Positions 36,289-49,862 of a DNA stretch of 64,000 nucleotides are shown piece by piece. Position numbers and translations under genes: made by a program. The notes beneath the pieces are model-generated. The model was given only the letters and a program-made list of their open reading frames with translations. It was not told the origin of the DNA and did no database searches. The stretch is from contig JAFGSG010000145.1 of the NCBI GenBank assembly GCA_016934735.1, forward strand, positions 32,231 to 96,230, read 5' to 3'. The stretch is from Spirochaetota bacterium (GTDB taxonomy: Bacteria; Spirochaetota; UBA4802; JAFGDQ01). How positions within the stretch are numbered: position 1 is the first letter of the stretch; each line of letters opens with the position of its first letter.

Positions 36289-38238
36289 ATGACAAATAAC
36301 GGTTCAGAAAAATATCCCAATATATTTCAATCAGGCCGTATCGGCAGACTCATTTCAAAGAACAGGATAAAATACGCAGCAACTGAGACTAATTTTCCTT
36401 TCGGCGATGGATATGTGAGCGACAAAGAGGTCGCATACATGGAAGCGCAGGCAAGGGGAGGAGCAGGCATAGTGACCACTCAGGGAGCTTATCCGGATAA
36501 GCTCGGAGAGGGTAAGGGCTTTAAGGGTTCTATGGCTATTTACGATGACCGTTTTATTCCCGGGCTTGCTCGCATAGCGGATGTAATACGTAAACACGAT
36601 GCGCTTTCGTGCCTTCAGATTTTGCATTGCGGCAGGGAAGGCGGCGTTGAACTGGATTACTGCCTTATGCCGTCTATTGTTCCTCAGAAGCTTTCTTATT
36701 TTAAACCGCCTCGCGAAATGACAAAAGATGAAATAAAACAGGCTATTAGTGATCATATTGAAGCAGCAAGGCGGGCTAAAGATGCCGGTTTTGATATGGT
36801 CGAGCTTTCCGGAATAGTGGGTTATTTAATATCGACATTCATTTCAAGATATACTAACAAACGCACTGATGAATACGGCGGCGATCTGCGCTCCAGATGC
36901 AGACTGATGATAGAGATAATTCAGGGAGTAAAAGCACGCGTTGGCGATATTCCGGTGGGCATAAGGCTGTGCGGTCATGAACTGCTGGATGATCGCGGCG
37001 GCAACACGATGGATGAGAGCATAGAGACGTTCAGGATTGCGGAAGAAGCGGGGGCTGACTTTTTAAGCGTGACCGTCGGATGGCACGAGTCGTCGCAGTC
37101 TGTCATTACAAGGGATGTGCCCATGGGGCATTGGCTTCCTGTGGCCGAAGCAGTAAAGAAGAAAGTGAATATACCAGTCATGATGGCGTTCAGACAGTTC
37201 TTCCCGCATATTCCGGAGAAAGCTATCGCCGGAAACCGGATCGATTTCTGGGAATTGTGCAGGCCCATGATAGCTGACCCCGAACTGCCGGTTAAAATAA
37301 AAGAAGGACGTGAAAACGAAATCATACCATGCGTTGCATGCAATCTTTGCTTTTCCAGACTCTATTATCATCAGCCCATAATGTGTACAGTAAGGCCGAA
37401 CCTCGGACATGAGGCAGAGGAGGACTGGGGCTATTATAGATTTTATCCCGCAAAAAAAAATAAAAAGATTATTATTATCGGCGGAGGGCCGGCAGGTCTT
37501 CAATGCGCTGCTGTTGCTGCAGGCAGGGGCCATAATGTAATTCTCTATGAGAAGAAGAAGGAATTAGGCGGCAGCATGCTTCTTGCTTCTAAAGTGGATG
37601 AAGGAGCAATAGAGTTGTTAAGGCCTGTGAATACCCTGGAGGCTCTTTGCAGAAAAGCGGGTGTGGAATTCCGGCTCAGTAAGGAATATACGGGAGAGAT
37701 GCTTGAAGATATGCAAAAAAAGAAAGAAGTTGATGCCGTGGTAATTGCATCAGGATCTGTTTTTAAAGAATCGCATAATATCCTTACACCTCACAATATT
37801 ATTGCTGAAGAGAAAAAGCCAGGCCGTAATATTGTTATAATTGGCGGCAGCGGCACCGGTCTCGGGATTGCAGTATTTCTGCTGAGAAATAATGACTACC
37901 GGATTACGATAATCGAAGAGGGATCGAAGCCAGGCAGAGATGTGAATCCATTTTATTTATGGCAGTATATGGGTCTTATGAAAAAGAAGAATGTGATATT
38001 CTATACGCGTTCCAGGGTTATTGAAACAGGAGAAAAAACAGTTCGTTTTGCTTGCCCTAAAGGCGAAATAGTTTTAAATCCTGACAGCATCATTATGGCT
38101 CGATCAGAGCCAAACAAAGCATGGCATAATGCGTTTATTGATATAACCCCGGAAGTATATTTTATCGGGGATGCAAAAAAGCCGAGGCGTCTCCAGAACG
38201 CGATACACGATGGATATCGTACAGGGATGGCATTATGA
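36289..38238 (+). CDS. Old-yellow-enzyme family NADH:flavin oxidoreductase / 2,4-dienoyl-CoA reductase-like
   Basis: N-terminal OYE TIM barrel, CVACNLC...C cluster motif, C-terminal NAD/FAD GGGPAGLQCA. Confidence 0.88.
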   Translation: MTNNGSEKYPNIFQSGRIGRLISKNRIKYAATETNFPFGDGYVSDKEVAYMEAQARGGAGIVTTQGAYPDKLGEGKGFKGSMAIYDDRFIPGLARIADVIRKHDALSCLQILHCGREGGVELDYCLMPSIVPQKLSYFKPPREMTKDEIKQAISDHIEAARRAKDAGFDMVELSGIVGYLISTFISRYTNKRTDEYGGDLRSRCRLMIEIIQGVKARVGDIPVGIRLCGHELLDDRGGNTMDESIETFRIAEEAGADFLSVTVGWHESSQSVITRDVPMGHWLPVAEAVKKKVNIPVMMAFRQFFPHIPEKAIAGNRIDFWELCRPMIADPELPVKIKEGRENEIIPCVACNLCFSRLYYHQPIMCTVRPNLGHEAEEDWGYYRFYPAKKNKKIIIIGGGPAGLQCAAVAAGRGHNVILYEKKKELGGSMLLASKVDEGAIELLRPVNTLEALCRKAGVEFRLSKEYTGEMLEDMQKKKEVDAVVIASGSVFKESHNILTPHNIIAEEKKPGRNIVIIGGSGTGLGIAVFLLRNNDYRITIIEEGSKPGRDVNPFYLWQYMGLMKKKNVIFYTRSRVIETGEKTVRFACPKGEIVLNPDSIIMARSEPNKAWHNAFIDITPEVYFIGDAKKPRRLQNAIHDGYRTGMAL

Positions 38239-38426
38239 TACCGGTAATAGACAAAGATAAATGTACTGCATGCAGGAAGTGTATTGAAATTTGTCCTCCG
38301 CAGGCAATATCGCTGAAGGATGATGCAGCCTGTATAGAAGCTGATCTATGCGAAGAATGCGGCTTTTGTGCAGCCGAATGCCCTGTTAATGCGATTACAA
38401 TACCTTTCCCTATATCCGGCAGGTAG
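38235..38426 (+). CDS. 2x[4Fe-4S] ferredoxin
   Basis: CTACRKCIEICPP and CEECGFCAAECPV; ATG overlaps the upstream stop by 4 nt. Confidence 0.9.
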   Translation: MIPVIDKDKCTACRKCIEICPPQAISLKDDAACIEADLCEECGFCAAECPVNAITIPFPISGR

Positions 38427-38428
38427 CT

Positions 38429-39184
38429 TCACTTTTTCTTAAAAAATCCTTCCAGCCTCTCCTGAAATTCTTTTTTTCCTGCAAGTTCGGTTACAAATTG
38501 CCGTTCTTTATCCAGCTGGGAATCGAGGCCCGAATACAGGGATTGATTAACCAGTTCTTTAAAATAGATGATTGTCTCCATAGGAAGAGATTTTAATTCA
38601 TCTATCATTTTTTGCAGACGTTCTTCCAGTTCTTCCTCATCCACAACAAAATTGACAAGGCCGAGTTTCTGCGCTTCGTCCATCGAAATATTTTTTGAAA
38701 ATAGATATAGCTCATTAAATTTTTTTGCTCCGACTATACGTGAGATCAGAATGCTGCCTCCTCCGTCCGGCGTAAGTCCGATCCTGCGGTAACCAAGGTT
38801 CATGATTGTTTTCTTTGTGGCAATGGACAGGTCACATGCAGCAGCAAGCCCTGCGCCTGCTCCTATCACAACGCTTTCCAGAACAGCAATAACTATAGCG
38901 CTTGTATTTCTTATTATTTTAATGATCTTGTTAAACATGTCCGCTTCTTCATTTACGAGTGCCTTTTTGTCTTTTGCATCTTTAAAATCAATTAAGTCTC
39001 CGCCTGAACAGAAAACCTTGCCTGACCCTCTTAAGACAATAATTGAGGGTTTTTCGGCTTCCGCTTTTGTAAAGGATTCCAGCAGAGCCTTGAATAAATC
39101 ATAATTCATGGCATTTTTTTTGTCAGGCCTGTTAAGGGTGATTGTGCATATGTCATCTTGAAAAGTTTCAAACACTTCATTCAT
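38429..39184 (-). CDS. Enoyl-CoA hydratase/isomerase family protein
   Basis: ICTITLNRPDKKNAMN, SGGDLIDF, VIGAGAGLAAACDLSIA. Confidence 0.88.
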   Translation of the reverse strand: MNEVFETFQDDICTITLNRPDKKNAMNYDLFKALLESFTKAEAEKPSIIVLRGSGKVFCSGGDLIDFKDAKDKKALVNEEADMFNKIIKIIRNTSAIVIAVLESVVIGAGAGLAAACDLSIATKKTIMNLGYRRIGLTPDGGGSILISRIVGAKKFNELYLFSKNISMDEAQKLGLVNFVVDEEELEERLQKMIDELKSLPMETIIYFKELVNQSLYSGLDSQLDKERQFVTELAGKKEFQERLEGFFKKK

Positions 39185-39208
39185 GTGTTATCTCCAGTGA
39201 GCGGGTGC

Positions 39209-39736
39209 TTATCTGCCGGCAGCAGTAAGTTTTTGTTCTAATTTTTTTATGACCAGACTGAAATCCTTCGGGAATATTCCCGAAATCCTGATATCGCCTG
39301 GCAGTGATTCAAAGTAATTTATAGCGATCCTTTGAACTCTTGGATCATTGCTGTTTATTGCTGATTTTACAGGCCCTCCTATGAACGCGTTCGGCAGCAG
39401 TTTAATAGCTTCAGCAGCCATAATCGGTTCTATCGGAGTCGCGTAATTATAGGATGCTGTTTTATCGTGAATGCCTGTGTAATGTGATTCAATGATCTGC
39501 ATTATAGCGCGTGCTGAAGCAATATATAATTTTTTAAGAACCTCATTTGTCTCTTTATAAATTTTTAATTGTCTGCTTTCGCTGTCTCTGGGCAATTGAG
39601 GTATATCCTCCAGCATTTTAAGTGAATTCAATTTAATTTGAACTTCATCCTTTTGCAATAGCCGTATAATTTTTTCAGTTATAGATATTATTTCTTTGAA
39701 ATATTCAACATTATACTTATTGATTTTATTGGACAT
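39209..39736 (-). CDS. Hypothetical protein
   Basis: 175 aa ORF with RBS-like aggagg upstream. Confidence 0.6.
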   Translation of the reverse strand: MSNKINKYNVEYFKEIISITEKIIRLLQKDEVQIKLNSLKMLEDIPQLPRDSESRQLKIYKETNEVLKKLYIASARAIMQIIESHYTGIHDKTASYNYATPIEPIMAAEAIKLLPNAFIGGPVKSAINSNDPRVQRIAINYFESLPGDIRISGIFPKDFSLVIKKLEQKLTAAGR

Positions 39737-39784
39737 ACTTTTCCTCCTTGCTTTAATCTTTATAAAAAAAGTATTTACAATAAA

Positions 39785-40255
39785 TTAAAACTTTTTACAC
39801 GCGTAAAAATAATAACTTTGTTCATTTAAAGACTGTGCTTTTTTTTTATTGTTAGTTTCCATGGTGATCCACGCTTCGCGCACAGCAATCGCGGAGCTGA
39901 TTCCTAATGTGCCGATCAGGAGAGCAGGCCTGTAATCTTTCCAAACGCTTACCGCGGTGTTTTGCTTCTTTACAACGCCATAAGTATGGAGTGTTGCAAA
40001 TGTAAGAATAAAAACGAACGGCAATGAGATAAAAAACGTGATCTCAAATCTGCGTAAAGGGCTTTCAGTATCAGCGGTATTTCCGGCTTGTCCTGAATTG
40101 TCGGATAATTTGTCATTGAGTGCAACATAATCGGACCGGGCATATCGGATATATTCATCTGATATATAGTGCGAATATCGGACCTCCCCATATCCTGAAT
40201 GTATTAGTTGTAACACAATGAAAAAAGTTAAGAATGCAAATCTGATTATTTTCAA
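39785..40255 (-). CDS. Hypothetical exported/membrane protein
   Basis: 156 aa; N-terminal signal segment and two internal hydrophobic segments. Confidence 0.55.
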   Translation of the reverse strand: MKIIRFAFLTFFIVLQLIHSGYGEVRYSHYISDEYIRYARSDYVALNDKLSDNSGQAGNTADTESPLRRFEITFFISLPFVFILTFATLHTYGVVKKQNTAVSVWKDYRPALLIGTLGISSAIAVREAWITMETNNKKKAQSLNEQSYYFYACKKF

Positions 40256-40283
40256 AGATGTTGTTATTCCTTATCAATATTTT

Positions 40284-41144
40284 TTAAAAATAATCCGGAA
40301 ATATTTTTTTAAGCTTTTTTTTCTGCCCGGGATTCTGCTTCTGGGGTGCAGTCAGAATCGAACTTTTAATAGCATCTTTGCATCCGCATGTTCGCTCCTT
40401 CCCCATGTACGGCAGCAGAGACTTTATAAGATTTTTTGCATTGTCAGCGTTTTTGTTTAAGTTGCTGATCAGCATTTCAACTGTTACGTGTTCTTCATCC
40501 TCCTTCCAGCAGTCGTAGTCGGTGCTCATACAGATGATTGAGTAGCATATCTCTGCCTCTTTCGCCAGCTTTGCTTCCGGCAATGTGCTCATATTTATAA
40601 TTCCTGCTCCCCATGACCTGTACATGTGGCTTTCTGCCCTTGTCGAAAATGCAGGGCCTTCCATGCATATGACTGTTTCCTTTGTATGAAGCTTGAGGCC
40701 GTTTGCTTTTGCGACGGGTATAATAAGTTCATGAAGCCTCGCACAGAACGGATCAGCAAACGCTACATGAGCAGCAACTCCGTCCCCGAAAAAAGTACTC
40801 GGTCTGTTTTTTGTCCTATCGATTACCTGATAAGGAAGAATAAAATCAAGAGGCTTTATTTCATCTTTAAGGCTGCCTACAGCTGAAAATGCCAGTATCT
40901 CTTCAACTCCTATCATCTTTAAAGCGGCAATATTTGCCCGTGAATTTACTTCATGAGGAAGAATGAAATGTCCTTTGCCATGCCTTGGAAGAAAAGCAAC
41001 TAAAGCTTCATCAATCTTTGCAATGACTATTGAATCCGAGGGTTTTCCCCATGGGGTGTCCAAAGATAATTCATTTATTATTTGCGCCCCTTCTATTTCG
41101 TAAATACCTGAACCACCGATAACAGCAACCTTTACTTTTTCCAT
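40284..41144 (-). CDS. mtnP: S-methyl-5'-thioadenosine phosphorylase-like (PNP/MTAP family)
   Basis: VAVIGGSGIYEIEG, FLPRHGKGHFILPHEVNSRANIAALK, CMEGPAFSTRAESHMYRSWGAGIINMSTLPEAKLAKEAEICYSIICMSTDYDCW. Confidence 0.88.
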   Translation of the reverse strand: MEKVKVAVIGGSGIYEIEGAQIINELSLDTPWGKPSDSIVIAKIDEALVAFLPRHGKGHFILPHEVNSRANIAALKMIGVEEILAFSAVGSLKDEIKPLDFILPYQVIDRTKNRPSTFFGDGVAAHVAFADPFCARLHELIIPVAKANGLKLHTKETVICMEGPAFSTRAESHMYRSWGAGIINMSTLPEAKLAKEAEICYSIICMSTDYDCWKEDEEHVTVEMLISNLNKNADNAKNLIKSLLPYMGKERTCGCKDAIKSSILTAPQKQNPGQKKKLKKIFPDYF

Positions 41145-41380
41145 AGTGCTTTTCTTCTCCAGTTAATGAGTTTCGTAATTTAGTATTATAGAATTAAATT
41201 CATGTCAAGATAAAATCGATCGAAATATCGTCTCATGGTAATCCAATTCAGACGAAATATTATTCGAAAAACCGATTTAATAATTTAGTTAATATTCTGG
41301 AAAACTTTATAATTCCAATAAATTTCAATGCGTTATTTGTGTTATTATAGATCAATACACGTATTATTTATGATGTAATA

Positions 41381-41433
41381 TAGCGTTCATTACGCTCTAC
41401 GTAGCGTTCATTACGTTCTATGTAGCGTTCATG
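41381..41433 (+). repeat. 21-bp tandem repeat, two full copies plus a partial third
   Basis: tagcgttcattacgctctacg (41381-41401), tagcgttcattacgttctatg (41402-41422), tagcgttcatgac... (41423-); first copy contains AGCG-ttcatta-CGCT. Confidence 0.85.
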
Positions 41434-41499
41434 ACAATCCGCTTTACAGTAAGAATTTTTTATGATATTATTGAGAAAATAATTCTTAAGGATAGAAAC

Positions 41500-42306
41500 A
41501 TGAGAATCACGGCAGAAATTTGTTTTAAAGGCAAGCCTCCATTTTATATACCTGTTACTTACAGACGAAACATTGTGAGCCTTATAAGAGAGGCGATAAG
41601 GTCAGCTGATAACACTCATGAAATATATAGTAAATACTGGGGAAACACAAATACACATAGTGTAAAGCCCTTTACATTTTTTTTGTCCGTTCCGGATGTA
41701 AGCTATATTGATTTTAATGACAGAAGACTTATAAGATTAAATGACAAATATTTTAAACTTTATATTACATCCAGTGATTCAACTTTCCTTTCTATTCTGC
41801 ACAAATGGCTGTCGGATACTCCTAATAAATCATTTAATTTATTTAACTATAATGTGGAGATAAAGGGAATAATTTTAAAAGAAGTAAAAACAATACATTC
41901 CAGCTTTGAGCGTTTTAAAATACTGTCACCGGCCATTGTTAGGGATGTGGCAGTCGAAGGAAGAAAAAGAAAGAGCATGGGATATTTATCCTGCAATAAT
42001 CCGGATTTTGAGGATTCGCTTGCTTATTCAATTATAACTCTTTGCAGGAAATTTTTACATAGTAAAATATTAAATAGAAATGATATTGAATTAGATACGT
42101 CTCTATGCGTGAGTTCAATAATCTACCATTACATGGAAACTATTCCTGTTACTATAGGCATAATTGGAATTAAAGCAGATGATGAGGTACTTGAACTGAT
42201 ATACAATGCAGGGCTTGGAGCCAGACGCAGCCAGGGATTCGGTATGGTGGATTTACTGACTGAAGCTGATTATGATTCTATAACTGTAATGGAAGAACTG
42301 GCTTAA
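41500..42306 (+). CDS. cas6: Cas6-family CRISPR RNA endoribonuclease (orphan)
   Basis: KPFTFFLSVPDV, FKILSPAIVRD, and C-terminal G-rich loop NAGLGARRSQGFGMVDLL typical of Cas6; ATG 41500 with aagga upstream preferred to 41431. Confidence 0.83.
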   Translation: MRITAEICFKGKPPFYIPVTYRRNIVSLIREAIRSADNTHEIYSKYWGNTNTHSVKPFTFFLSVPDVSYIDFNDRRLIRLNDKYFKLYITSSDSTFLSILHKWLSDTPNKSFNLFNYNVEIKGIILKEVKTIHSSFERFKILSPAIVRDVAVEGRKRKSMGYLSCNNPDFEDSLAYSIITLCRKFLHSKILNRNDIELDTSLCVSSIIYHYMETIPVTIGIIGIKADDEVLELIYNAGLGARRSQGFGMVDLLTEADYDSITVMEELA

Positions 42307-42561
42307 AATCTTTAAGCATTTTCTTTAAATAAGAATTAAATGTCATAATTTAATTCCGGCATGAGTAGTAATTTTTTTAATTAAATTATAACTGTTTTTA
42401 TAGCCAACCCAAAATTTCAACTCTTTATTGTATAAAAATCAATCTATAATTTATATTTGACAAAATTTGTTTTATAATTACTTACTATTCTGTCTAAAAT
42501 AAAGAAGTTCAATAGCTTCATAAAAGGACATATTTATTAAAATAAAAACCAGGGAGGCTAT

Positions 42562-43878
42562 ATGTTTGAAAAACTTTTCAGGCTGAAAGAAAATAATACA
42601 AGCGTAAAAGTCGAGGTTTTAGCCGGAATTACGACATTTATGACAATGGCGTATATTATTGCCGCTAATCCGATGATCCTTTCGGCTGCGGGAATGGATA
42701 AGGGCGCGGTGGTGCTGGCGACATGTATTGTCAGCGGTATCATTACAATTGTAATGGGATTATTCTCCAACTATCCTATAGCGCTTGCACCGGGCATGGG
42801 GATAAATGCATTCTTTGCTTTTGCGATCTGCAAAGGCATGGGAATTGACTGGCGAGTAGGACTTGGCTTCTTTTTTATTGAAGGTATAATAATATTAATC
42901 ATAACAATGACAAAACTTCGTGAATTGGTGATCAATTCAATTCCAATGTCTTTAAAATGCGCCGTAAGCGTTGGTATAGGTCTTTTCCTTGCGTTTATCG
43001 GCTTTGAAAACGCGGGTTTTATCGCCAAGTCTGATGCTACATTAATAACTATAGCTCAGATCGGCAACCCGGATGTTTACCCGAAAATAATCCTTGTGGG
43101 AATTGTTTTAATATTAACCACGATCCTGCTTTTTAAAAAGGTAAAAGGCTCCATCCTTATAGGAATCATCGTCGGGACTTTGCTCAGCTTCATTCCGTTT
43201 TTCCATGCAAAAGGTGAAGCATTGCAGTTCCTTTCGCCATCCCTTGCGCCTACATTTTTTGAGCTGGATATCCTTGGAGCGTTCCAATGGTCATTTGCTG
43301 CATTGATCGTTACCCTGCTTTTTGTGGATTTTTTTGATACAGCAGGGACAGTTATCGGGCTTGCGGTAAAATCTAAAGTCGTGGGCAAAGATGGAAAAAT
43401 TCCAAGGATAGGCAGAGTATTAATGTCCGATTCATTCGGCCCGATTTTAGGTTCCCTCTTCGGCACCTCAACAGTCACTTCATATATTGAAAGCGCGGCT
43501 GGTATAGAAGAGGGCGGCAGGACCGGTTTGACTGCAGTTGTTGTCGGAGTATTGTTTTTAGTTTCGATTGTAGCTGCTCCTCTTGTTGGATTTGTCCCAT
43601 CGACTGCAGTTGCTCCTGCGCTTATAATTGTCGGAATAATGATGATGGAATCAGTAACAAGAATAAATTTTTCCGATTATTCTGAAGCAGTTCCGGCGTT
43701 TATTACCATCGCGGTTATGCCGTTTACTTACAGCATATCCAACGGAATATTTATGGGCTTTTTATCCTATGTTCTTATTAAATTGCTTTCGGGCAAAGCA
43801 AAAGAAGTATCTGTTGTAATGTATGTTCTGGCTGTATTCTTCCTGTTATTCTTTATTTTCAGCCCGGTTTATAAATAA
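42562..43878 (+). CDS. NCS2/AzgA-type purine permease
   Basis: EVLAGITTFMTMAYIIAANPMILS, APGMGINAFFAF, FFDTAGTVIGLA, GTSTVTSYIESAAGIEEGGRTGLTA. Confidence 0.92.
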   Translation: MFEKLFRLKENNTSVKVEVLAGITTFMTMAYIIAANPMILSAAGMDKGAVVLATCIVSGIITIVMGLFSNYPIALAPGMGINAFFAFAICKGMGIDWRVGLGFFFIEGIIILIITMTKLRELVINSIPMSLKCAVSVGIGLFLAFIGFENAGFIAKSDATLITIAQIGNPDVYPKIILVGIVLILTTILLFKKVKGSILIGIIVGTLLSFIPFFHAKGEALQFLSPSLAPTFFELDILGAFQWSFAALIVTLLFVDFFDTAGTVIGLAVKSKVVGKDGKIPRIGRVLMSDSFGPILGSLFGTSTVTSYIESAAGIEEGGRTGLTAVVVGVLFLVSIVAAPLVGFVPSTAVAPALIIVGIMMMESVTRINFSDYSEAVPAFITIAVMPFTYSISNGIFMGFLSYVLIKLLSGKAKEVSVVMYVLAVFFLLFFIFSPVYK

Positions 43879-43906
43879 ACTGATCTTTAAATTAGCATTA
43901 GTAAAT

Positions 43907-43943
43907 TACCGCGCCTGCCACTGGCTTGTGCGGTATTTTTTTT
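43907..43943 (+). terminator. Rho-independent terminator after permease
   Basis: TACCGC (43907-43912) / GCGGTA (43930-43935) followed by T-rich run. Confidence 0.7.
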
Positions 43944-44064
43944 ATTTTTTAGCTTGATTTCTCCGATTGTTGTGGCCGATGATAATCGGATAAATATTTT
44001 TTCTGGAGGCAGCACTTTGAAACTGGAATATTTACAAATCTGTAAAATAAATTTATTTTCTGCC

Positions 44065-45507
44065 ATGAAAAATTTATTAAAACGTAACCTGATAAATATT
44101 CTATTAATTTTTTCTCTTTTTATCGGAACCGGACTTCTTGAGACTGCTCATGGTGATACCGGAAATTCAACAAGCGGTTACACACAGAAAGGTAATTTCG
44201 AACTCGGCGGTGCTTTCGGCACTCCCTCCGGATTAAATGCGCGGTACTGGTTTACCGAGAGGTTCGGCCTGGACGTCAACGCCGGAGTATCGCTCGAAAA
44301 ACAGCTTGCATTCACTGTCGATTTTTTGGTTGAGGATTTTAAACTTTACAGATCGAGCACATTCGAAACAAGATTTTTTTACGGGATCGGCTGTCTTTTC
44401 TCAAAGGATGACGACGATAATAATAAAAATAATATACGCATACCTCTGGGATTATCCTTTCCAATGATGCAGTATCCTATTAATTTTTCAATCTATGCTG
44501 CCCCCGCTTATGTACTGAATCCGAAATCCAAATTTGAAATAAATTATGGTGTCGGTATCAGATACAATTTCAGCATGGCTTCGGATATAAGGGAAAGACA
44601 GTATAATCTGGAAAGGGAGCTTGGAAGACTGGAAAATGATATTGAATCCCTAAGGGAGGGATTGGATCTTACAAAGGGCAAGCTGGCTGAAACCGAAGGA
44701 AAGCTGTCCGATACCAAGGGGAAACTTACACAGAAAGAAGGAGAGCTTAATTTAACAAAGGAAAAGCTCGATGACCTGACGCAGAGGCTTGACACTTTAA
44801 AACATAAACTCGGAAAAACCGAAGGCGAACTTGACACTGCCAAAAACAAATTAGAGTTAACGACCAAACAGCTAGATGATACAAAAAACCAGCTTGATGA
44901 TGTTAAAAAAGAACTGAATGATACGAAAAAGAACCTGGATGATAAACAGCTTGAATTAACAAAAAAGCAGATCGAACTCAACAATGCCAGGATCATTATA
45001 GAGAATGCATACATCGGGAAGGAGAAGGAACAGGAAGAGGAAAAAATTGCCAGAAAGCAGAAAGAACTGGATGAACAAAAATCCAGATTAGATAATCAGA
45101 AGAAAGCATGGGAAAAGATAAAAGCTCACGAAGCCCGGAAGAGGGAAGATCTAAAGAAAAAATGCGAGGAACGAGGCGGGATTATAGATGAATATGGTTA
45201 CTGCGTCTGCCCTGAGAAACAGGAATGGGATCCGAGGACGGACAAATGCGTATGCATTAAGGGTTATTACAGGCTTCGGCCGTCTGATGAATGCAAGGCA
45301 TGCGAGGTAATAAAAGAGAGCGGTGAATGCACAACCGGATGCAGGGATGATCAACAGAAGGTCCAGCTTAAAAAGGGGCCGCACAAATATGTCTGCGTAA
45401 GGAGATGCCGTAAAAGTAATGAGTTGTGGTCGAATCGCAAAGGAGAATGTGTTTGCAGGGACGGTTACTATAGAAGCGACAGCGGCGAATGCGTTAAGAG
45501 GCAGTAA
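44065..45507 (+). CDS. Outer-membrane-type protein: N-terminal small barrel, long leucine-heptad coiled coil, C-terminal EGF-like Cys-rich region
   Basis: Signal peptide from ATG 44065; ELGGAFGTPSGLNARYWFTERFGLDVNAGV; 15 Leu at exact i+7 spacing; 14 Cys in the last ~115 residues with CVCxxGYYRxxxxxEC repeated. Confidence 0.75.
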   Translation: MKNLLKRNLINILLIFSLFIGTGLLETAHGDTGNSTSGYTQKGNFELGGAFGTPSGLNARYWFTERFGLDVNAGVSLEKQLAFTVDFLVEDFKLYRSSTFETRFFYGIGCLFSKDDDDNNKNNIRIPLGLSFPMMQYPINFSIYAAPAYVLNPKSKFEINYGVGIRYNFSMASDIRERQYNLERELGRLENDIESLREGLDLTKGKLAETEGKLSDTKGKLTQKEGELNLTKEKLDDLTQRLDTLKHKLGKTEGELDTAKNKLELTTKQLDDTKNQLDDVKKELNDTKKNLDDKQLELTKKQIELNNARIIIENAYIGKEKEQEEEKIARKQKELDEQKSRLDNQKKAWEKIKAHEARKREDLKKKCEERGGIIDEYGYCVCPEKQEWDPRTDKCVCIKGYYRLRPSDECKACEVIKESGECTTGCRDDQQKVQLKKGPHKYVCVRRCRKSNELWSNRKGECVCRDGYYRSDSGECVKRQ

Positions 45508-45610
45508 ATATATTTTTATTTGTAAGTAGATTATTGTGTAAGCCGGAGAAAAAATCCTTATAATATGGGTTATTGTCAAAGGCGTTTTTAATAAATAATC
45601 TTTGCTTCTT

Positions 45611-45677
45611 CGGCCCCCTAAATCCCGCTGAAGGAGGACTTGAAAATTTATAGTCTCCTTCAGGGGCGTGGGGGCGA
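45611..45677. repeat. Imperfect long inverted repeat (MITE-like or regulatory hairpin)
   Basis: cggccccctaaatcccgctgaaggaggact ... agtctccttcaggggcgtgggggcg. Confidence 0.6.
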
Positions 45678-45698
45678 ACGAGATATGGAGGAATTATA

Positions 45699-46478
45699 AT
45701 GAGTTTTGCAAAAAGGGAATGGATCGCGCTTGGAATATCTGCGATTGTTACAATAATATTTATCGCGCTTATGACGGTTTTTCTGGGAACCGGAACAATG
45801 GGCATTATGCTCTTTGGAACAGATTCTGCGTATTATCCTTTTACGCTCTATAATCTTATGTATTTTTTCTTTTTCATCGGACTCGGCCAGCTTTGGGTCA
45901 GATGGCTGAGCACCTATGAGGAAAAAGTATTCTTAAAAAAATCCGGTTTCCTTCCTGAAGACGATAAAGCAATGCTTAAAAGCGATGATGAGATCGAGAA
46001 AATAAGAGTAAATACAGCTAATGCTGCCATGAGAGGCGAGGCTTTCCTGCCCGGGCTGATAAATAACTGCATCAACCAGTATTTTAAATCGCACTCAGTG
46101 AGCGATACGATATCTGTCCTAAACAGCGACCTTGAACTCAATATTCACAGGCTAGATCTGCGTTATTCGATGTGCAGGTATATTATGTGGGCGATCCCGA
46201 CTTTCGGGTTTATCGGTACTGTAGCGGGAATAGCAAGCGCGCTGACCAAACTTGACATCGTCAAATTTATGGGGACGCAAAGTGATAAGGTTGTGCAGTT
46301 CAAGATGCTTGCATCCGATCTGGGATTCGCCTTCGATACAACAATAGTAGCGCTTGTCCTTAGCTCAATATTCGTATTCATCATGCACATTGTGCAGAGC
46401 GGGGAAGAGGAAGTACTGAACAGATCCGGCAAGTACGTGCTGACTAATTTAATAAATAAACTGGCAATAAAAAAATAA
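45699..46478 (+). CDS. MotA/TolQ/ExbB-like proton channel protein
   Basis: Four hydrophobic helices; TM3 YIMWAIPTFGFIGTVAGIASAL and TM4 LGFAFDTTIVALVLSSIFVFIM match TolQ/ExbB/MotA core. Confidence 0.85.
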   Translation: MSFAKREWIALGISAIVTIIFIALMTVFLGTGTMGIMLFGTDSAYYPFTLYNLMYFFFFIGLGQLWVRWLSTYEEKVFLKKSGFLPEDDKAMLKSDDEIEKIRVNTANAAMRGEAFLPGLINNCINQYFKSHSVSDTISVLNSDLELNIHRLDLRYSMCRYIMWAIPTFGFIGTVAGIASALTKLDIVKFMGTQSDKVVQFKMLASDLGFAFDTTIVALVLSSIFVFIMHIVQSGEEEVLNRSGKYVLTNLINKLAIKK

Positions 46479-46487
46479 TTTAAAAAC

Positions 46488-47531
46488 ATGAGACGGCCTA
46501 ACAGAGATTATAACATTTTTAATATATCAATGCTCGATACAATATCCGGAGCGTTGGGAGCTGTTATGGTCATTATGATCGTGCTCCTTACGCAGAAGAT
46601 AGGCCTTGAATCAATGTCGTGCCAGGATATTAAAGAAGAGCTTATATCGACATCAAATCAGTTAAATGAGACTACTGAGGAACTCAGACAGACAAGAAAA
46701 GAATTAAGTAAAAAAACAACAGAGCAGACTTCTATAATTGATAAAGTATTCAGCATTACGAAGATTGTGGATAATACGGTAGTCAAACTTAAGGAGACGA
46801 TCAATAAAATATATGAAGTAAATAAAGAGCTGTTCGAGAAGTCTCCCGAAAAAGGAATGTCTTTCCAGATACCAAAAAAGATAGTTATGCTGATAGATCT
46901 TTCCGGAAGCATGTCTCCTGAGAATAATAAATATAAAGAAGACAGGCTGTCCCAGCTGAAAGCCGCGATTAAAATGTTCATCGCAGGAATGGATCAGGAG
47001 TATTATATTGATATTGTTTATTTTCCCGCATTTCCGGAAAATATTGACAAAAAGTTGTATCCGAATTTTATAATTAAACCTGAACTTGATAATAAATGCA
47101 AAAATTTTGAGATGAGGGACGATGCTTACGATAATGCAGCCTTAATTTGCTATAAGTACGGTTACTTTGAAGGCGAATTAAAACAAATATTTTCCGAAGA
47201 GGATAAATTAAATTTTTATAATAAAATTGCCTGCCTTAAGGCATATCATGATACTCCTACTGAAACCGCTCTTGATTTTGTTTTAACTGACGGCAGATAT
47301 AAAGATGCGGAAGGGATCATACTTTTCAGCGACGGACAGCCGGATTCTATCAGGAAGAAAAAAACAACAACAGATGCTTTGCTTAAACTTATAAAAAATA
47401 AAAACAAATCAAATAAGAAAATTTTTACTGTGGGAGTAGGAACTGAATTCAGAAACAAAGAAGATACTCTTGCTGTAGACTTTTGTAAAAGACTCGCAAG
47501 TCAGAATGAAGGATTTTATATCGGTTTTTAA
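46488..47531 (+). CDS. N-terminal ExbD/TolR-like TM helix fused to coiled coil and VWA domain
   Basis: FNISMLDTISGALGAVMVIMIVLL with Asp17; MIDAS residues DLSGSMS, T in TPTETAL, SDGQPD. Confidence 0.85.
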   Translation: MRRPNRDYNIFNISMLDTISGALGAVMVIMIVLLTQKIGLESMSCQDIKEELISTSNQLNETTEELRQTRKELSKKTTEQTSIIDKVFSITKIVDNTVVKLKETINKIYEVNKELFEKSPEKGMSFQIPKKIVMLIDLSGSMSPENNKYKEDRLSQLKAAIKMFIAGMDQEYYIDIVYFPAFPENIDKKLYPNFIIKPELDNKCKNFEMRDDAYDNAALICYKYGYFEGELKQIFSEEDKLNFYNKIACLKAYHDTPTETALDFVLTDGRYKDAEGIILFSDGQPDSIRKKKTTTDALLKLIKNKNKSNKKIFTVGVGTEFRNKEDTLAVDFCKRLASQNEGFYIGF

Positions 47532-47557
47532 TTATAAATAAATTATGGAGTATTTTT

Positions 47558-48337
47558 ATGAGCTATAAAACGATCAAATACGAAGTTAAAGACGGCATCG
47601 CCGCGGTAACCATTAACCGTCCGGATGTTCTTAACGCATTGAGCCCGGACGTTCTTAATGATCTGCTTTCAGTAAGCGAAGAAGCGGAAAAGGATAAGAA
47701 TGTTAAGGTTGTCATCCTGACAGGCGAAGGCCGCGCTTTTGTTGCAGGAGCGGATATTGCCGCCATGAAAAATTTTACCACACAGGAAGCCCTCGCGTTT
47801 ACAAAACTGGGACACGGTGTAATGAATTCATTTGAGAGGATGTCTAAGGCCGTACTCGCGGCTGTGAACGGGTTTGCGCTCGGCGGGGGAATGGAACTTT
47901 GTCTTGCAAGTGATTTTATTTACGCGTCCAAAAAGGCGAAGTTCGGCCAGCCGGAAATGAATCTGGGTATAATGCCGGGCTTCGGGGCAACTCAAAGACT
48001 CGCACATGTCGTTGGAATTAATAAAGCCCGCGAACTGATATATACCTGCGATATGATAGACGCTGAGGAAGCAAAGCGTATTGGGCTTGTTGCTGAGGTT
48101 TACGAAGCTGAAGAACTGATAAGCAAAGTGACAGAAAAGGCTAAACTCATTATGTCAAAAGGCCCGTGCGGGATTGCGGCCACTAAGCGAATCATGAACA
48201 AAGGACTCGGCATTGCTATGGATTCGGCTCTTGAGCTTGAACAGCAGGGTTTCAGCGCCCTGTTCGGCACCGAGGATAAACTGGAAGGTATAAGCGCATT
48301 CCTTGAGAAACGGAAGGCGGATTTTAAAAACAAATAG
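47558..48337 (+). CDS. Enoyl-CoA hydratase (crotonase family)
   Basis: GIAAVTINRPDVLNALS, AFVAGADIAAMK, NGFALGGGMELCLASDF, KFGQPEMNLGIMPGFGATQRL. Confidence 0.93.
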   Translation: MSYKTIKYEVKDGIAAVTINRPDVLNALSPDVLNDLLSVSEEAEKDKNVKVVILTGEGRAFVAGADIAAMKNFTTQEALAFTKLGHGVMNSFERMSKAVLAAVNGFALGGGMELCLASDFIYASKKAKFGQPEMNLGIMPGFGATQRLAHVVGINKARELIYTCDMIDAEEAKRIGLVAEVYEAEELISKVTEKAKLIMSKGPCGIAATKRIMNKGLGIAMDSALELEQQGFSALFGTEDKLEGISAFLEKRKADFKNK

Positions 48338-48370
48338 ATATTATTGCAATTAGGGACAAGTACTTAATGC

Positions 48371-48440
48371 CTCACCCGGGAGACCCTGACGGCGGGCAGG
48401 ATGCATGTTTATGGCTGGCCGATAGCTCCGGCCGGGTGAG
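48371..48440. other. GC-rich intergenic hairpin element
   Basis: CTCACCCGG (48371-48379) / CCGGGTGAG (48432-48440) perfect 9-bp arms around GC-rich interior. Confidence 0.5.
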
Positions 48441-48473
48441 TGCACAAGTCAAAGTATAAAAATATTATCTGGT

Positions 48474-49862
48474 TTAAAATATTTTACCCGGGTTCAGTAT
48501 GCTGTTCGGATCGAATGCAGCTTTAATTCTTTTTGATAATTCTATTCCTTCTTTACTTACCGCGAGATTTAAATAATTCTTTTTAGTCAACCCGATTCCA
48601 TGCTCACCTGTAAGCGTACCGCCGTAGAAAATCGCTTTTTTAAATATGTATTTTTTTATTTTAGGGACAAGCTTATTCCATTTTTCAATGTTCATATCAC
48701 CTTTCAAAATATTAATATGAACATTACCGTCGCCTGCATGGCCGTAAATAATCGATCTTAGAGATTCGGTATTTAAATAAGTCTTTATATCCTTAATAAA
48801 AACAGGAACCTTTGATCTGGGTACGACAGTATCTTCTCCGAAAAAAATACTGCTTGCATTTTTTATAGATTCTCTGATGGATCTTCTTGTTTTCCATAAT
48901 CTTTCTTTTTGAATTTTTGTATTTGCTGCAATGATTTCGTATTTAGTGTTAATCAGATTGTTTAACCGGTCTAAATCCTTCATCAGGTCATCCTCGGAAT
49001 CACCGTCGATCTGGATTAGAAGATGAGCTCCTGCGTTGCCGAACGGGATCTCTTCTTTGAGGAATTCCTTAACGAGTTTAATGGCGTCTTCTTCCATAAA
49101 TTCAATAGTTGACGGGATGATCCTGTTCTGCAGCAGGAGAGGCACGATATTCAGTGCTTTATCTATTGAGTCAAACGGGATAAGTAGATCAATGACTGCA
49201 GGCGGAGCAGGAATGAGTTTTAAGTATATTTTTGTGATTACTGCGAGCGTACCCTCTGACCCGACTAATATGCCGATAAAGTTATAGCCGGTCGCGTTCT
49301 TAACGATCTTACCGCCTGTGTTTATTACGGCTCCATTGGGAAGCACGAATTCCAGACCTGTAACATAGTCTTTGGTTGTCCCGTACTTTACAGCTCTCGG
49401 GCCGCCTGCGCCTTCAGCCAGGTTTCCGCCGATTGAGCATGAATCAAGGCTGGCCGGGTCAGGGGGATACATAAGCCCGTGTTCCAGAGCTGCGTCCTGC
49501 AGGGTCTTTGTGATAACACCCGGCTCTACAACAGCGAACATGTTTTCCTTATCGATTTCGATTATATTATTCATTTGCTCAACAGAAAGCACTAGCCCGT
49601 GTTTTACAGGAATAGCGCCGCCTGTTACGCCTGTGCCTGCTCCTCGTGGTATCGCAGGTATATTGTATTTACTGCATATTGCGAGTGTTTTGCTTACGTC
49701 GGTTACGGATGTCGCCCTAACAACTATAGCGGGGAACTCCGAAATATCGGATGTCTCGTCCCTGGAAAATTGGTCGAGCATATACGGGTCTGTAATGACT
49801 TTATCTCTGCCAATAGATTTTCTCAGTGATAAGACCGCTTTGTTTAATGCCGTTTTATTCAT
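48474..49862 (-). CDS. FAD-linked oxidase (glycolate/lactate oxidase GlcD-like)
   Basis: PRGAGTGVTGGAIPVKHGLVLS, GGNLAEGAGGPRAVKYGTTKDYVTGLEFVLPNG, GHAGDGNVHINIL, GEHGIGLTKK. Confidence 0.92.
   Translation of the reverse strand: MNKTALNKAVLSLRKSIGRDKVITDPYMLDQFSRDETSDISEFPAIVVRATSVTDVSKTLAICSKYNIPAIPRGAGTGVTGGAIPVKHGLVLSVEQMNNIIEIDKENMFAVVEPGVITKTLQDAALEHGLMYPPDPASLDSCSIGGNLAEGAGGPRAVKYGTTKDYVTGLEFVLPNGAVINTGGKIVKNATGYNFIGILVGSEGTLAVITKIYLKLIPAPPAVIDLLIPFDSIDKALNIVPLLLQNRIIPSTIEFMEEDAIKLVKEFLKEEIPFGNAGAHLLIQIDGDSEDDLMKDLDRLNNLINTKYEIIAANTKIQKERLWKTRRSIRESIKNASSIFFGEDTVVPRSKVPVFIKDIKTYLNTESLRSIIYGHAGDGNVHINILKGDMNIEKWNKLVPKIKKYIFKKAIFYGGTLTGEHGIGLTKKNYLNLAVSKEGIELSKRIKAAFDPNSILNPGKIF

Follow-up and report, generated by a model that had tools for sequence, protein, structure and literature searches.

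A conserved three-gene cassette of spirochaetes that may encode a proton-driven, VWA-tipped trans-envelope machine

Results

Gene content of the locus

The window, by which we mean the whole 64,000-nucleotide stretch of DNA that was analysed, belongs to a spirochaete MAG of 3.55 Mb. In an earlier note, made from the sequence alone, two open reading frames separated by 9 nt had been recognised, which we designate B and C, and both the frames and the gap between them were found where they had been placed (Table 1). The B/C pair is real, but the note had overlooked a third gene, A, which lies upstream and was linked to the pair wherever it occurred.

Table 1. Positions in the window of the genes and features of the A-B-C locus
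Feature	Coordinates	Strand	Description
Gene A	44065..45507	+	480 aa from the ATG at 44065; the mechanical ORF starts at the TTG at 43954
Gene B	45699..46478	+	259 aa; MotA/TolQ/ExbB-type proton channel subunit; Pfam PF01618
Gene C	46488..47531	+	347 aa; TM helix, coiled coil and VWA domain; from the ORF, the alignment of seven orthologues and AF2/Foldseek
Asp17 codon of C	46536..46538	+	candidate proton-carrying residue; sole charge in the TM segment; invariant in seven orthologues
MIDAS motif 1 of C, D137-L-S139-G-S141	46896..46910	+	invariant in seven orthologues
MIDAS Thr256 of C (HDTPT)	47253..47255	+	invariant; assigned by comparison with canonical VWA domains
MIDAS Asp282 of C (FSDG)	47331..47333	+	invariant in seven orthologues
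RNA hairpin between A and B	45613..45675		strong; single copy
cas6	41431..42306		lone gene; Cas_Cas6_C, E=8e-19
Segment between oxidase and phosphorylase genes	41144..48474		about 7.3 kb

Conservation of the cassette

Besides the window protein, C had six full-length orthologues in the same order, 55-71% identical over all 347 residues, and the genomes carrying them were scattered over three families within that order. B (at E<=1e-20) and C occupied exactly the same 7 of 296 genomes and were neighbours in every one, which supports the pairing made in the earlier note. Full-length A was confined to these seven genomes (7 of 59 relatives), weak relatives of its barrel alone being found in other genomes as well. 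The gene order A-B-C was kept at all seven loci, each locus, and each genome, having a single C gene, and the flanking genes were common to the window genome and one other (G002) and different at the remaining five loci. When the genomes were compared in pairs, the identities of A, B and C agreed in rank (Spearman 0.90-0.92), as is expected if the three genes travel together.

In a genome of the same family (G001; L133 14319-16747), the genes for an FAD-linked oxidase and a phosphorylase are adjacent, whereas in the window they are separated by a segment carrying cas6, a permease gene, A-B-C and an enoyl-CoA hydratase gene, suggesting that the segment was gained or lost as a block. In two further genomes (G039 and G040; loci L052 and L053), the A-B-C proteins were about equally distant from those of their own family (f7) and from those of another (f1), and the phosphorylase gene, unlike these proteins, grouped with f7. 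This pattern hints at horizontal transfer of the two cassettes.

The region between A and B (45600-45698) was predicted to fold with -40.2 kcal/mol (z -3.8), and its hairpin matched no Rfam family. A genome-wide repeat was considered for this hairpin and ruled out, as it is present in a single copy; it may separate the expression of A from that of B-C. Both the window genome and G002 carry the cas6 gene near the cassette; a search of window positions 38000-44100 revealed no CRISPR array. Searches of viral contigs and phage sequences returned no relatives, and those of the cassette with PADLOC and PHROGs gave nothing informative, the matches to A reflecting coiled-coil similarity.

The channel subunit B

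B matched the Pfam family MotA_ExbB (PF01618) with E=1e-9 and 38.7 bits, over the curated cut-off of 22.9. When it was aligned with six ExbB-type proteins and one MotA of the same genome, its T174 (in GTV) and T215 fell on the conserved threonines of ExbB, and both of these pore threonines, located in two C-terminal TM helices, were invariant across the orthologues. The Pfam match and the conserved threonine positions uphold the TolQ/ExbB/MotA-type identity proposed for B in the earlier note. The four helices also ascribed to it are likely, although the hydropathy scan left the second segment (about residues 47-68) under its threshold.

The window genome contains eight MotA/ExbB-type channel genes, six with an ExbD neighbour, one with a MotB neighbour and one, B, with neither, its only neighbour of this kind being C. 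No ExbD gene was found on the contig of the window genome, and no ExbD-like genes were seen beside the cassettes in the other six genomes.

The Asp helix and VWA domain of C

C begins with MRRPNRDYNIFNISMLDTISGALGAVMVIMIVLL, and its best hydrophobic segment in a hydropathy scan spans residues 16-34. The codon of Asp17 lies where the earlier note had placed it, and this residue was invariant in the seven orthologues. Arg/Lys residues precede the TM helix and four cysteines beyond it (Cys45, 204, 221 and 249) were invariant (n=7), a charge pattern and cysteine conservation that fit a predicted N-in/C-out topology. The TM helix is followed by a coiled-coil stalk (about residues 35-116) and the VWA domain (about 128-347). 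AF2 modelled the latter with a VWA fold, at pLDDT 74-92 over most of residues 131-347 and weaker around 211-220, and the TM part at low confidence (pLDDT 31-48); in Foldseek the model matched the VWA domain of CLCA1 with a TM score of 0.74 by target length. The Pfam match of this domain was below the cut-off (VWA_2, E=4e-5), and a crystal structure annotated as a 'hypothetical membrane spanning protein' (4rck) matched it weakly (E=0.005). Together with this fold, the invariance of D137, S139, S141, T256 and D282 (n=7) corroborates the VWA domain with complete MIDAS that had been read from the sequence earlier; judged by these residues, the MIDAS of C is intact and a candidate metal site. Weak matches to C across the phylum did not extend over the whole protein and were rejected as relatives; they were coiled coils or different secreted VWA proteins.

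The earlier note had aligned the N-terminus of C by eye with the TM motif of ExbD/TolR. Whole C gave no Pfam match to ExbD/TolR (PF02472) up to E=10. In hhalign comparisons with ExbD and MotB profiles built from the same order, in which sensitivity was low because the C query profile was shallow, neither the relation to ExbD/TolR (E=0.17) nor that to MotB (PF13677 plug; E=0.08) was significant, while the positive control, ExbD versus MotB, gave 3e-4. With the single N-terminal sequence of C as the query, the score was no better than those of unrelated TM helices. Both alignments nonetheless put D17 on the catalytic Asp. Context and motif support C as the putative functional motor partner of B, whereas these comparisons did not place it in the ExbD/TolR family.

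The barrel, rod and knob of A

The A protein has a signal peptide followed by an 8-strand OmpA/OprF-like barrel (about residues 44-168), a rod (about 169-367) and a knob (367-476). Foldseek gave OmpA as the top match to the barrel and a TM score of 0.61 with OprF, and the strands number eight if the split strand at 120-134, which DSSP breaks in the AF2 model, is counted once. As the model of whole A had a pTM of 0.33, only its local elements were usable. Matches of A to PDB sequences were generic coiled coils.

The rod, taken as the stretch between F206 and C404 (numbered as in the rod-length measurement), was 185-220 aa long in the seven A proteins, and all differences in length from the window protein were multiples of 7; its hydrophobic period was 3.5. 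At 0.15 nm per residue, a helix of 200 residues would extend for approximately 30 nm, enough to span a periplasm. The knob contains 14 cysteines, invariant in all seven proteins. Even-stranded, OmpA-like barrels have their C-terminus in the periplasm, so the rod and knob of A should be periplasmic, and the invariant cysteines of A and those beyond the helix of C fit an oxidising compartment.

Distant relatives of the B-C pair

Among the relatives reached, the nearest to B outside the spirochaetes was a TolQ-like protein of the Rhizobium leguminosarum plasmid pRlBT01d (L033), which was 38% identical to it. The protein encoded next to it on its downstream side, its partner, matched the N-terminus of C (tblastn E=7e-6 over 61 residues), the first 35 residues being ungapped and Asp17 aligned. 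The C-terminal domain of this partner is not a VWA domain, its neighbours differ from those of C, and the domain had no Pfam match and appeared DUF2135-like by eye. That the helix is shared while the C-terminal domain is not points to the helix as the module that faces the motor. Kinase-, FHA- and PP2C-like genes, recognised by eye, lie near the channel and the transpore-helix protein (L033 1265-7738), and this cluster apparently encodes another, uncharacterised 5:2 motor.

In plasmids of Anabaena (L073 5530-8109) and Sagittula (L074 5449-7427), a TolQ-like gene is followed by genes for two different short TM proteins, apparently heterologous pairs of motor partners; the first of these in Anabaena was weakly ExbD-like (E=0.0036). 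The Anabaena pair has type III-B CRISPR genes on one side and a viperin gene on the other.

Discussion

A proposed trans-envelope machine

The earlier note had put B and C forward as a candidate new complex. A complex of this kind had already been predicted in 2025: that study (Mol Biol Evol 2025;42(6):msaf138, June 2025; PMC12204202) deals with VWA proteins whose transpore helix is TolR-like and has a conserved Asp (TPH-vWA), their genes being tightly linked to tolQ in the absence of tolR, and presents an AF3 prediction of a TolQ-like protein with such a VWA partner. As described there, the family is found in Proteobacteria and Verrucomicrobia, its members are mostly heterologous vWA pairs, an arrangement that is predominant and not universal, and its function is uncharacterised. 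In the literature searched, we found no experimental work on such VWA motor proteins.

We consider the chance slightly better than even that the three proteins work together as a single proton-driven machine spanning the envelope, in which a B5:C2 motor would place the VWA domain of C on the knob of A. In this machine, B would be an inner-membrane pentamer with two C helices in its pore, where Asp17 would act as the proton carrier facing a threonine ring formed by T174/T215. C would take the role of ExbD/TolR/MotB as a homodimer, as is expected from its being a single gene, unlike most of the published family, and its coiled-coil stalk would hold a pair of VWA heads out in the periplasm. The OmpA-type barrel of A would anchor this protein in the outer membrane, its rigid heptad rod would extend across the periplasm, and the MIDAS of the VWA domain would most likely bind the disulfide-rich knob. 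Driven by proton flow, the dimer of C would turn against B and so pull or twist the rod, bringing the outer membrane under force, and the link between A and C would stand in for the peptidoglycan anchor used by MotB/TolR.

What the sequences and models show directly is the linkage of the genes, the conserved catalytic and metal-site residues, the VWA and barrel folds, the heptad phasing of the rod and the lack of any other partner gene next to B. We infer the 5:2 stoichiometry, the proton coupling, the force on the outer membrane and its direction, and the cellular role. The putative contact between VWA domain and knob is suggested by linkage and topology only, seven orthologues being too few for an analysis of coevolution. 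More tentatively, with somewhat less than an even chance of being right, we suggest that the three genes make up a self-contained motor, in which a homodimeric Asp-helix/VWA partner would turn in a TolQ-like pentamer while holding on to the disulfide knob of A through its metal site, transmitting force to the outer membrane with neither TolA/TonB nor a peptidoglycan-binding domain. No peptidoglycan-binding domain was recognised in A or C, which counts against the machine proposed here. As regards the earlier reading of B and C as a proton-driven machine, the linkage of the two genes, the lack of an ExbD or MotB neighbour, the invariance of Asp17 and the threonines, the fit of the topology and the matching N-terminus of the Rhizobium partner speak for it, whereas the expected profile homology to ExbD/TolR/MotB was not obtained.

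Alternative explanations

It is possible, although fairly unlikely, that B and C make up a 5:2 VWA motor like the one predicted in PMC12204202 and that A is an outer-membrane protein which shares their regulation but has no contact with C. The VWA domain would then have another ligand, for example an envelope enzyme, a lipoprotein or peptidoglycan. VWA domains bind many ligands, and the B-C linkage alone would be sufficient for a motor. Furthermore, the available part of PMC12204202 mentions no A gene for the TPH-vWA family. However, A was never absent from the cassette and always lay directly upstream, and the exact heptad phase of its rod is expected of a mechanical link.

We regard as quite improbable a sensor in which the VWA domain and rod would detect the state of the outer membrane or envelope and ligand binding would gate proton entry via B. 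The signalling context of the Rhizobium relative, in which Ser/Thr-kinase-like, two FHA-like and PP2C-like genes (by eye) adjoin the B-C counterparts, would suit such a role, and the 5:2 complexes of Zorya can act as sensors, but no directly adjoining kinase or effector gene is common to the seven spirochaete cassettes.

A Zorya-like phage defence module seems very unlikely: the patchy presence of the cassette (7 of 59 relatives), the lack of the whole segment at the G001 site and a weak match of B to PADLOC ZorA2 (E=0.001) might point in this direction, but PADLOC gave no match at all to C, there is no ZorB-type OmpA domain, no ZorC/D/E-like gene was seen by eye in the neighbourhoods inspected, and no defence island surrounds the cassette, the only CRISPR-type gene nearby being the lone cas6 in two genomes of one family. 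Equally hard to credit is the adjacency of an ordinary membrane-anchored VWA protein and an orphan channel that form no complex, for which the non-significant ExbD/MotB profile match of C could be cited, given that B and C co-occur perfectly and are adjacent in differing neighbourhoods, that the TM-helix Asp is invariant, and that the same helix is found beside the nearest non-spirochaete relative of B.

The 'adhesion' function given to the VWA domain in the earlier note was overstated, as its likely partner is the periplasmic rod protein A and not a surface. The barrel of A is small and the cassette encodes no other secreted protein, so an internal role in the envelope, such as tethering or stabilising the outer membrane, appears more likely than surface adhesion or gliding.

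Comparison with known systems

The cassette shares its type of channel subunit with TolQR-Pal and ExbBD-TonB, and the model for it, as for them, is force exerted across the envelope by means of the proton-motive force; it differs in that C lacks the periplasmic domain of ExbD/TolR and that no TolA/TonB, TolB or Pal is encoded. The two N-terminal hydrophobic segments of B before a cytoplasmic loop resemble MotAB/PomAB, as does the combination of an Asp helix and a periplasmic domain in one partner, but the VWA domain replaces the OmpA-type peptidoglycan-binding domain, and the window genome has a separate motAB. Zorya ZorAB is a non-flagellar 5:2 motor, as B-C would be, and B is weakly similar to its ZorA; in contrast, the long ZorA tail, the OmpA domain of ZorB and effector genes are absent here. 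A TolQR-type motor is linked to a VWA protein in the gliding machinery of Myxococcus (AglRQS and CglB). CglB, however, is a surface lipoprotein of the outer membrane and not the Asp-bearing subunit, whereas in the A-B-C cassette only the barrel loops would be expected outside.

The vWA force transducers with TolA/TonB-like topology (PMC12204202) also place an inner-membrane-tethered vWA domain beside a motor, but as described there they bind the side of a complete TolQR-type motor through an SHLS-type helix, whereas C itself carries the Asp and no TolR is adjacent. The comparison of C with TPH-vWA (the Idiomarina family; PMC12204202) was made by described features. C resembles this family in having a single N-terminal TM helix that bears the VWA domain (AF2, Foldseek and hydropathy), a conserved Asp in that helix (D17, invariant) and no SHLS motif in it (absent in 7/7), and B and C do so in the pairing with a tolQ-like neighbour, with no tolR/exbD adjacent and with threonines in the channel. 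It differs in that a single C gene replaces the predominant heterologous pairs, and in that the cassette belongs to spirochaetes and includes the invariant barrel-rod-knob gene A, no outer-membrane partner being named in the available part of PMC12204202.

New here are the use of one VWA gene where most of the family has two, the lineage, and the invariant gene for an outer-membrane rod protein. The build of A suits the missing end of the 2025 TPH-vWA family, for which the available part of the paper (PMC12204202) names no outer-membrane partner, and the cassette would be a minimal version of such a motor, with one channel and one VWA helix. The Rhizobium relative further points to modular use of the Asp helix, in combination with different periplasmic domains. 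If A does bind C, the target of a VWA-tipped 5:2 motor, and the way in which force can cross the envelope independently of TolA/TonB, would become directly addressable.
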